Assembly (NCBI GenBank): GCA_021776235.1
Contig: JAJFGG010000090.1
Coordinates: 1-64,000 of the forward strand
Length of the DNA: 64,000 nt
Source of the DNA: Alphaproteobacteria bacterium
GTDB lineage: Bacteria > Pseudomonadota > Alphaproteobacteria > GCA-2731375
Direction of reading: 5' to 3'
Shown here: positions 59,561-62,298 of the stretch, one piece after another
How the letters are laid out: each line of letters begins with the position of its first letter
Position numbering within the stretch: position 1 is the stretch's first letter
Position numbers and translations under genes: made by a program
The notes under the pieces: model-generated
Seen by the model: the letters and a program-made list of their open reading frames with translations, nothing else
What the model was told of the DNA's origin: nothing
Databases searched by the model: none

Positions 59561-59687
59561 CGGCTAGACTCTGCCTGTCCCCGCTGGTGCCGACAAGTAG
59601 CGATAAAAGCGGTGCCGTCTGAGGGTGGGGATTTGGGTTAACCGGAATGATCGAGCAGATGCATATGGTAGTTGGAATGAAGGCGCC

Positions 59688-60371
59688 ATGAAATTCTTCG
59701 TAGACACCGCCGACGTCGCCGAAATTCGCGATCTGGCGGCTACCGGGCTGCTGGACGGGGTGACCACAAATCCATCCCTGGTGGCAAAGACGGGGCGCGA
59801 TTTTTTTGATGTGGTGGCGGAAATTTGCGCCTTGGTTGATGGCCCGGTCAGCGCCGAAGTGGCGGCGACGGACGTAGAGGCAATGGTGGCGGAAGGCCGT
59901 ACCTTGGCCAGGATAGCCGACAATGTGGCGGTCAAGGTGCCTTTGACCTGGGATGGACTGAAAGCCTGCCGCAGCCTTAGCCAGGATGGCACCCAGGTCA
60001 ACGTCACTCTTTGTTTCTCGGCCAATCAGGCCCTACTGGCGGCCAAGGCCGGGGCCAGCTTCATTTCGCCTTTCGTAGGCCGGCTGGACGATATCGGCCA
60101 TGACGGCATGCAGTTGATCGCCGAGATCTTGGAGATCTATGGCAATTATGACAGCTTCCATACGGAAGTTCTGGTCGCCTCGATCCGTTCCCCGATGCAT
60201 GTCCTGCATGCCGCCCGCCTGGGCGCCGACGTCTGCACCATTCCCCCGGTCGTGATCCGGCAGTTGGCCAAGCATGTTCTGACCGACAAGGGGCTGGATG
60301 CGTTCCTGGCCGATTGGCAGAAAACCGGACAGTCCATTCTGGGCCGCGGCGATTCGGGCGACAAGGCATAG
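59688..60371 (+). CDS. transaldolase / fructose-6-phosphate aldolase family enzyme
   Basis: This 227-residue short transaldolase has a TIM barrel with the Schiff-base lysine in [13 protein letters not shown]. It opens [20 protein letters not shown], then [16 protein letters not shown] and [20 protein letters not shown], with [14 protein letters not shown]. Short forms act either as transaldolase in the pentose phosphate pathway or as fructose-6-phosphate aldolase; sequence reading alone cannot separate them. The ATG at 59688 fits the family start. Confidence 0.92.
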
Positions 60372-60373
60372 GC

Positions 60374-61102
60374 ATGGCTGGCAAGCGCACATCGTCCAGA
60401 CCGCACGGTGGGGAGGCTAACCGCACGCCCGAGGCGGAGGCGGTGCGCGAATACTTGCTGGCAAACCCCAGTTTCCTGACCGACAACCCGGATCTTTTGC
60501 CCCTGCTGCGTCCAGAAGCCCAGCATAGCGGCGAAAACGTTCTGGATATGGGCCAGATCGTGACGCGGCGCCTGGGCGATGAAGTGGCCCGATTAAAGGC
60601 CGAACATGAAGAATTGCTGGCCAATGGCCGGGCCAATCAGACAGCACAAAAACAGATCCACGCGGCTGCCCTGGCCATGCTGGAAGCGCGCAATTTTGAA
60701 CATCTGATCCATGTGGTCACCCGCGATCTGGCGGAAATTTTTGCCATCGACACGGTGACCCTGTGTGTCGAGACAGCGGATGACGGCCCGACACAGGCGC
60801 CGACGGGGGGTGTCTATGTGCTGCCCGCGGGCCAGGTTGACCGCCTGCTTGGTCCAGGGGCCGGCTCCCGGCTGGAAGGGGTGCGGTGTGGCGACCGTGC
60901 AATTTTTGGCCCCGCCGCGGAACTGGTGCGCAGCCAGGCGCTCGTGCGCTTGTCGCCCTCGCCCGGCTCGCCGCCCGGGCTGTTGGCCCTGGGCAGCCGG
61001 GACGGCGACAAGTTCCACCCCGGCCAGGGGACGGAATTGCTGCAATTTCTGAGTCGATTGATGGAGCGGTTGTTTCGGGCATGGCTGGATCTGTCCAACT
61101 AA
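60374..61102 (+). CDS. DUF484 family protein
   Basis: This 242-residue protein matches DUF484, a GAF-like family usually found just before xerC. It has AVREYLLANPSFLTDNPDLL, a coiled-coil DEVARLKAEHEELLANGRAN, a GAF-like centre with IDTVTLCVETADDG, and LALGSRDGDKFHPGQGTELL, LQFLSRLMERL at the end. The function is unknown. It begins two bases after the transaldolase stop and overlaps xerC by 22 bases, suggesting coupling to recombinase production. Confidence 0.88.
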   Translation: MAGKRTSSRPHGGEANRTPEAEAVREYLLANPSFLTDNPDLLPLLRPEAQHSGENVLDMGQIVTRRLGDEVARLKAEHEELLANGRANQTAQKQIHAAALAMLEARNFEHLIHVVTRDLAEIFAIDTVTLCVETADDGPTQAPTGGVYVLPAGQVDRLLGPGAGSRLEGVRCGDRAIFGPAAELVRSQALVRLSPSPGSPPGLLALGSRDGDKFHPGQGTELLQFLSRLMERLFRAWLDLSN

Positions 61103-62064
61103 GTCCCCAGCACGACATTGGGGTGGCCGACGCCGTGGCGCGCTGGCGGGGCTGGCTGCAATCCGAGCGCCGCTACTCGGAACATACCCTGACCGGCTAT
61201 GACCGGGATTTGAACGGCTTTCTTGATTTTATCGCACAGCATTTGGGACAGGCGCCCGGCCTGGAAGAACTAGGGGCCTTGCGCACCTTGGATTTCCGCG
61301 CCTACCTGGCACGGCGCGGTGGCGACGGCCTCGGCCCGGCCTCGCTGGCCCGGGCCCTCTCGGCGGTGCGGAGTTTTTTCCGCTTTTGCGAGCGCCAGGA
61401 CCTGTTTGCCAATGCTGCCATTCATGGCTTGCGAACACCCAAGCAGCCCCATGGCATACCCAAACCCTTGACGGTGAACGAAGCCGTGGCAGCGGTGGAA
61501 GATGTCGCCATTCTGTCTGATGAACCGTGGGTGCAGGCCCGCGACGTGGCCGTGTTGACCCTGTTGTATGGCTGCGGCCTGCGCATCGCCGAGGCCTTGG
61601 CCTTGAACCGCGGGCAGGCGCCCCTGGAAGAAAGTCTGATGGTCCGGGGCAAGGGCGGCAAGGATCGTCTGGTCCCGGTCCTGCCCGTGGTGGCGAAGGC
61701 GGTGGGTGCCTATCTTGCGCTGTGCCCTCATGATCTGCCCCTGGAGGGGCCGTTGTTCCTGGGCATTCGGGGTAAACGTTTGAACCAGCGCATCGTGCGC
61801 GCCCGGATGCAGCAATTGCGCATCAGCATGGGCCTGCCGGCTACGGCTACCCCGCACGCCCTGCGTCATTCCTTCGCTACCCATCTTTTGGCGGGGGGCG
61901 GCGATCTACGTACGATCCAGGAATTGTTGGGCCACGCCAGCCTGTCGACCACGCAACGCTATACCGAGGTCGATGCCGGGCATCTGCTGGACGTCTATCG
62001 TAAAGCCCAGGCCGTGGGGAAAAAGCGCCGGCAGGAAGATGGCAAAAAGAAAGGCGGCCGGTAG
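61081..62064 (+). CDS. xerC: tyrosine recombinase XerC
   Basis: This 327-residue recombinase resolves chromosome dimers at dif together with XerD. The N-terminal SAM-like domain (ARWRGWLQSERRYSEHTLTG) is followed by the catalytic domain with Arg168 (CGLRIAEAL), Lys194 (GKGGKDRLVP), His259 and Arg262 (HALRHSFATHLL), His285 (LGHASLSTTQRY) and nucleophile Tyr294. All are present. The Lys-rich tail (GKKRRQEDGKKKGGR) overlaps the stem of a terminator that serves the opposite strand. It overlaps DUF484 by 22 bases. Confidence 0.95.
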   Translation: MAGSVQLSPQHDIGVADAVARWRGWLQSERRYSEHTLTGYDRDLNGFLDFIAQHLGQAPGLEELGALRTLDFRAYLARRGGDGLGPASLARALSAVRSFFRFCERQDLFANAAIHGLRTPKQPHGIPKPLTVNEAVAAVEDVAILSDEPWVQARDVAVLTLLYGCGLRIAEALALNRGQAPLEESLMVRGKGGKDRLVPVLPVVAKAVGAYLALCPHDLPLEGPLFLGIRGKRLNQRIVRARMQQLRISMGLPATATPHALRHSFATHLLAGGGDLRTIQELLGHASLSTTQRYTEVDAGHLLDVYRKAQAVGKKRRQEDGKKKGGR

Positions 62065-62082
62065 AAAACCAAGCCGCCTTTC
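62044..62082 (-). terminator. intrinsic terminator for leftward transcription
   Basis: GAAAGGCGGC (62049-62058) and GCCGCCTTTC (62073-62082) form a perfect 10-bp stem with a 14-base loop. Read on the minus strand, the second arm is followed by TTTTT, the classic Rho-independent layout. It ends transcription from the small reading frame at 62126-62206 within the 3' end of xerC. On the plus strand no T-run follows, though the stem may protect xerC mRNA. Confidence 0.75.
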
Positions 62083-62125
62083 CGTGAATTGGGCCGTACG
62101 AACGTCCCGATCACTTGCGTGGGTA

Positions 62126-62206
62126 TCAGGTCAAGACAGAGAGGCTTTCCCTTTGTCCACCATAAATACCCCGGCCGATCGTTACGGCGCGCATTTCACT
62201 AGACAT
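62126..62206 (-). CDS. 26-residue peptide gene with a full-length Shine-Dalgarno
   Basis: The ATG at 62206 is preceded by GAAAGGAGGTGATCCA, the complement of the whole 3' tail of 16S rRNA, with AGGAGG seven bases from the ATG. The 26 codons read MSSEMRAVTIGRGIYGG, then QRESLSVLT, then TGA. The peptide has no membrane helix and recalls no family. A perfect intrinsic terminator follows 44 bases later, and a weak promoter candidate (TTGCGT and ATACTG, 17 bases apart) lies upstream near 62250. This is a complete, strongly translated-looking unit between xerC and a GNAT gene. It could be a leader, a signalling or modified peptide, or a toxin or antitoxin. Confidence 0.6.
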   Translation of the reverse strand: MSSEMRAVTIGRGIYGGQRESLSVLT

Positions 62207-62222
62207 TGGATCACCTCCTTTC
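62207..62222 (-). promoter_or_regulatory. extended Shine-Dalgarno matching the 16S rRNA 3' end
   Basis: On the plus strand TGGATCACCTCCTTTC equals the conserved last bases of 16S rRNA. Read leftward it is a 13-base or longer ribosome-binding site, far longer than the 4-6 bases used by other genes here. It serves the 26-codon frame. Confidence 0.75.
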
Positions 62223-62298
62223 GATTGTTGTTGCCAAGTGCGCAGTATGCCCCAAGTTATGGCTAACGCAACCTATCCTTTGCCCAGGGCGGTCAGGA

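Follow-up and report, generated by a model that had tools for sequence, protein, structure and literature searches.

What would a bacterial RNA do with a ribosome-binding site that matches the whole 3' tail of 16S rRNA, followed by a reading frame of only 26 codons? Such a locus lies on the minus strand of the window, the 64,000-nt stretch of alphaproteobacterial DNA analysed here (assembly GCA_021776235.1, contig JAJFGG010000090.1, positions 1 to 64,000). A sequence-only reading had pointed out the Shine-Dalgarno (SD) sequence, the ATG, the 26-codon frame and the perfect 10-bp hairpin with its T5 run, all of which are present in the sequence.

Results

The locus comprises the following features.

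62266..62271, minus strand: putative -35 box TTGCGT (TTGCRT in relatives), in an upstream block conserved in 10 same-genus loci
62244..62249, minus strand: putative -10 box CATACT, 16 nt from the -35 box, identical in 10/10 same-genus loci
62207..62222 (62222-62207), minus strand: SD sequence GAAAGGAGGTGATCCA, complementary to the known 16S 3' tail and conserved class-wide
62126..62206, minus strand: 26-codon ORF from ATG (62206-62204) to TGA, start and stop kept within lineages, amino acids not
62176..62199, minus strand: 5' arm of a long-range helix, inside ORF codons 3-11 (from fold and alignment)
62084..62104, minus strand: 3' arm of this helix, between stop codon and terminator (from fold, alignment and a cross-lineage duplex test)
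62049..62082, minus strand: intrinsic terminator hairpin, 10 bp, perfect, with the stem fully paired in 13/13 relatives
62044..62237, minus strand: predicted transcript of ~190 nt, its start placed from the -10 box and its end from the T-run

The ORF translates as MSSEMRAVTIGRGIYGGQRESLSVLT* (last position 62126, minus strand), and the terminator arms GAAAGGCGGC and GCCGCCTTTC (62082-62073 with 62058-62049, minus strand) are followed by TTTTT at 62048-62044 on the same strand. As had been proposed, the SD, the start and stop codons and the terminator form one minus-strand unit, and they are conserved in relatives. The claimed match of the SD to the entire 16S tail holds against GGAUCACCUCCUUUCU, the well-known conserved 16S 3' tail of Alphaproteobacteria; this reference was used because no 16S gene was found in any genome searched, including the assembly of the window, these genes being perhaps masked. 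At up to one mismatch, the 16-mer GAAAGGAGGTGATCCA has a single site in the 6.36-Mb assembly, against a chance expectation of ~0.003 exact sites.

The distribution of the element was determined with a strict pattern (20 nt around SD, start and codon 2), a looser pattern, and a reversed pattern as control. The strict pattern matched 35 of 385 alphaproteobacterial genomes and the looser one 95 of 387, about a quarter, nearly always with one copy each; the control yielded 0 matches. The recurring element consists of an SD complementary to the 16S tail, a start, 14-32 codons, a stop and a terminator. Carriers among the matches listed include Sphingomonas, Novosphingobium, Erythrobacter relatives, Paracoccus, Ruegeria, Roseovarius, Methylobacterium, Bosea, Bradyrhizobium, Mesorhizobium, Ancylobacter, Roseococcus, Inquilinus and Caulobacterales. 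The peptide was found behind the same SD block in nine of the ten other same-genus genomes, among which its identity drops fast, from 96 to 54%. Because SD block and peptide recur in these genomes, the initial concern that start, frame and SD might be unconserved does not hold.

Three genomes (G026, G423, G430) carry the SD/start pattern twice. Viral contigs of IMG/VR (L214, L215, L217, L218, L220, L224) also contain typical starts of the sRNA, most of them like those of Bradyrhizobium; several lie near a contig end, and the sRNA gene may belong to the host flank or serve as an integration site for a prophage.

A stray 16S gene fragment was considered and rejected: the plus-strand sequence upstream of the tail is unrelated, no 16S helix adjoins it, and cmscan reported no rRNA. 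Short ORFs are common, which would favour a chance SD before a chance ORF, or such a fragment; recurrence once per genome, the zero control matches and the missing 16S helix, together with the family match and the covarying helix described below, make this explanation exceedingly improbable.

The element is almost certainly homologous to CC2171, which was reportedly described as a Caulobacter sRNA by Landt et al. in 2008. In a cmscan search, window positions 62051-62230 aligned with the entire RF01867 (CC2171) model (model positions 1-159; 41.3 bits, E 1.4e-7). The two share this full-length alignment, the long-range closing pairs and the 3' terminator hairpin, an intergenic position and single occurrence, and the 5' block CAACAAUCGAAAGGAGGUGAUCCA(G/A)UGUCU of the family is present in the window copy. 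The score lies below the curated gathering score of 75 bits, and we therefore call the window copy a divergent homologue and not a curated member. Other loci of the class form a near-continuous series from ~27 to 91 bits, and eight loci retrieved solely with the SD pattern pass the RF01867 cut-off in cmscan. Matches to RF01867 were present in 85 of the 385 genomes of the class; Caulobacter was the only one of 14 control genomes to give a match. The layout of SD, start and short ORF was found in 28 of 30 covariance-model loci; the two exceptions are a duplicate of a pattern-found locus and a locus in which the same SD precedes GTG and then AAA. The model itself starts with CAACAAUCGAAAGGAGGUGAUCCAGUGUCU, and its consensus GAAAGGAGGUGAUCCAGUGUCUCAU reads as SD, GUG, Ser and His; Rfam models the family as non-coding.

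The earlier impression that the peptide resembles nothing known stands for the protein (no NCBIfam match, and one Pfam match, for a relative, far under the cut-off) and falls for the RNA. In the literature searched, CC2171 is named only by Rfam 15 and by a list of predicted sRNAs of Mesorhizobium, where 19 Rfam-annotated sRNAs were detected by RNA-seq (PMC5596092). We found no function for CC2171 there; the peptide strings led to no paper and the SD string mostly to 16S primers. The family is known by name, and we found no description in this literature of its start, stop and 16S-tail match, its class-wide spread, the absence of peptide selection or the covarying rod.

Among 10 same-genus loci, the 50 nt upstream of the element have a consensus frequency of 0.82-0.97 vs 0.43-0.61 further up; a generic sigma-70 scan did not call the putative -35 and -10 boxes. 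By our own criteria, a terminator follows the ORF in 153 of 179 loci. We infer that the window encodes a single-copy, independently transcribed CC2171-type RNA of ~190 nt. Its neighbours are a convergent XerC-type recombinase gene and an unassigned minus-strand ORF, and the flanking genes of the sRNA differ between lineages, with no fixed same-strand gene downstream. A cis leader role is unlikely because of these varying neighbours, and a leader peptide of a neighbouring gene was rejected, the convergent xerC-type gene following in the window.

Several neighbouring genes deserve mention. ORFs for transaldolase, DUF484 and the XerC-type recombinase lie in a row on the plus strand of the window (59625-62064), with PriA on the opposite strand. 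In most Rhodobacteraceae-type loci (L146, L102, L111, L174 and ~18 others), arfB, which encodes a ribosome-rescue peptidyl-tRNA hydrolase, follows the sRNA in the same orientation at ~250-390 nt (in a few at >1.1 kb); in one Hyphomonadaceae locus and in another family (L159; L032/L054) the two genes are adjacent and divergent. This adjacency may reflect shared ancestry or a link to ribosome rescue. Hand-picked neighbours related to trans-translation are a tmRNA ~1.2 kb away at L045 and an RNase R-like ORF 195 nt downstream at L118.

The boundaries of the ORF are kept and its content is not. Start codons interchange (GTG 100, ATG 73, TTG 6), as do the stops TGA, TAA and TAG, and the SD-start spacing is constant at 7 nt. 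The stop falls at codon 19 in 29 of 30 loci of one lineage and in 23 of 24 of another; in the former, the codons ahead of the stop vary freely, and the stop triplet begins with T in 29/29, while both of its following positions vary between A and G without ever forming TGG. The proposed comparison of synonymous with non-synonymous change gave a pN/pS of 0.93 in the genus group of the window, which speaks against protein-level selection, and 0.83, 1.30, 3.48, 0.91 and 0.99 in five further lineages; none of the six (range 0.83-3.48) shows a sign of purifying selection on amino acids. A GG pair in mid-peptide had been taken as a hint of a leader-type precursor; this idea fails because the pair is not kept in relatives (GRGIYGG, GLGMRSG, GQGMHVG).

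If the locus were a small-protein mRNA, with a very strong SD and a 14-32-aa peptide as its functional product, this would account for the conserved start, stop and SD and for the N-terminal residues that recur within lineages (MSHCH, MSHGS, VSRVILERGVGT). The recurrent Met-Ser is partly an ascertainment effect because the search pattern fixed codon 2 in most loci, and conservation of the N-terminal codons, synonymous sites included, needs no peptide since these codons form the arm of an RNA helix. With pN/pS near or above 1, peptides that cannot be aligned between lineages and no protein-family match above cut-off, we regard a small-protein mRNA as very improbable and are rather confident that the peptide is not the product. 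Two loci (L037 and L187) have the same SD block before an ORF of 56-59 codons with a shared signal-peptide-like N-terminus (MSHGA.PV.A.LFG..ALLTAG.A.A), perhaps a different gene that uses the same start signal.

The helix joins ~25 nt at the 5' end of the ORF to the stretch directly before the terminator (62199-62176 with 62104-62084 in the window). The predicted fold of the window RNA is 3.6 sd more stable than those of shuffled sequences. For covariation, the window was aligned with 12 relatives; helix and terminator together have 10 pairs with two-sided change vs 2.2 in shuffles (0/500 shuffles reach 10), and 90.5% of the cells are paired vs 32-47% when slid. In a duplex test between the 33 nt after the start codon and the 36 nt that surround and precede the terminator base, own arms had a mean of -25.7 kcal/mol vs -16.9 for arms swapped across lineages (z = -22.6), and every lineage showed this direction. 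Alifold gave a z of only -1.7 for lineage sph, a weak result that we attribute to a poor alignment. With high confidence, the RNA helix is conserved by compensatory change across lineages. Its edge lies at about +6.5 to +10 (lineage medians), which leaves SD and start codon largely exposed. An internal anti-SD that closes the SD is a weak possibility: UCACCUC in Bradyrhizobium and CACCUCC in Rhodobacteraceae are suggestive, and the excess over shuffles is small (0.8-3.9 kcal/mol).

Three loci with the same SD, start and short ORF (L104, L130, L212) are apparently from outside the Alphaproteobacteria. L104 and L130 are titled Gemmatimonadota MAG contigs, and the neighbours of L212 match those of L130; two of the three have glycine-cleavage-like neighbours. 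Their own-arm helices have values of -23.6 to -30.1 vs -17 to -20 when shuffled.

Discussion

Ribosome binding or translation probably matters more than the product because dock, start, stop and fold are kept and the peptide is not. The only open functional segment of the RNA would be the 5' tail with the full-length SD and the start codon, and beyond about +7 to +10 the RNA would be closed, as a rod by the long-range helix and then by the terminator hairpin. The exposed SD of 15-16 nt could capture free 30S subunits, translation of the 14-32 codons would force the rod open, and ribosomes would be released at the conserved stop ahead of the terminator. The RNA would thereby read out ribosome availability by toggling between its folded form and one opened by ribosomes; its output could be a change in RNA stability, an exposed 3' arm or simple sequestration of 30S, and the peptide is probably a by-product. 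The analysis shows the architecture and its conservation; we infer that the RNA is transcribed in the organism of the window, captures 30S, is translated and switches, as well as any target downstream of it. To us the balance is even for a structured sRNA whose exposed SD and start recruit 30S and in which translation acts as a structural switch and not as a source of peptide. The wider reading, a class-wide ribosome-sensing RNA in which the act of translating, not the peptide, sets the fold and thus the fate or activity of the RNA as a readout of free 30S, is proposed tentatively. Conservation of start and stop could also mainly keep ribosomes off the terminator, with no switching.

The ribosome-titrating RNA suggested by the sequence-only reading is kept as one of the live alternatives. 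The full-length SD would hold 30S subunits, the rod from +8 would hinder entry into the mRNA channel, and translation would be rare, with the ORF as a fail-safe. Complementarity continues through UGAUCCA up to the start codon, beyond normal SD needs, and its calculated energy with 16S (-32.9 kcal/mol vs -11.4 for a plain AGGAGG site) is ~20 kcal/mol stronger; the edge of the helix falls within the footprint that a 30S subunit usually covers, and each genome has one copy with its own promoter-like box and terminator. The conserved position of the stop, however, implies that ribosomes travel through the ORF, and a single copy would need very strong transcription to titrate ribosomes. We consider such a decoy rather unlikely.

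A trans-acting sRNA that pairs with mRNAs through other segments, with SD and ORF regulating its stability or giving it a dual function, would agree with the cataloguing of CC2171 as an sRNA, with the sRNA-like structure and terminator, and with the dual-function sRNA rnTrpL of the same class (PMC7298713, PMC10117765). Outside the SD block, however, we saw no conserved unpaired seed across lineages, the SD being the most conserved single-stranded stretch, and we judge this improbable. The translation-switch reading remains the one that we prefer.

In its outline of action, the RNA resembles RNAIII of Staphylococcus aureus, a structured RNA with a 26-codon ORF (hld) and 5'-3' pairing; RNAIII is unrelated and much longer, its peptide is conserved and active, and it has proven mRNA targets. 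The Bacillus type I toxin mRNAs txpA and bsrG likewise combine an extended SD, a short ORF, a strong fold and a terminator of their own. Type I toxins are conserved hydrophobic membrane peptides, whereas the peptides of the window family are short, mostly polar and divergent, without protein-level selection. The rnTrpL/peTrpL system of Sinorhizobium is also a small alphaproteobacterial RNA with a very short translated ORF (PMC7298713, PMC10117765), translation of the window RNA being presumed; rnTrpL is a leaderless attenuator before trpE, whereas the window RNA stands alone, has a full-length SD and belongs to a family whose neighbours vary. SmelA075/SmelA099 and BbsR14 are built on the SD:anti-SD interaction as well (PMC3927594, PMC7717549), but their anti-SD loops mimic 16S, whereas the window RNA carries the SD and mimics an mRNA.

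A family filed as one Caulobacter sRNA is spread over alphaproteobacterial orders with a fixed, ribosome-directed architecture. Most Caulobacter genes start without an SD (PMC4117421), and a maximal SD on one widespread sRNA stands out for this reason. The kept start and stop around an unconserved peptide in a covarying helix lead to a testable prediction, namely that translation itself is the signal. If this is true, a ribosome-sensing RNA would provide alphaproteobacteria with a direct readout of free 30S subunits.
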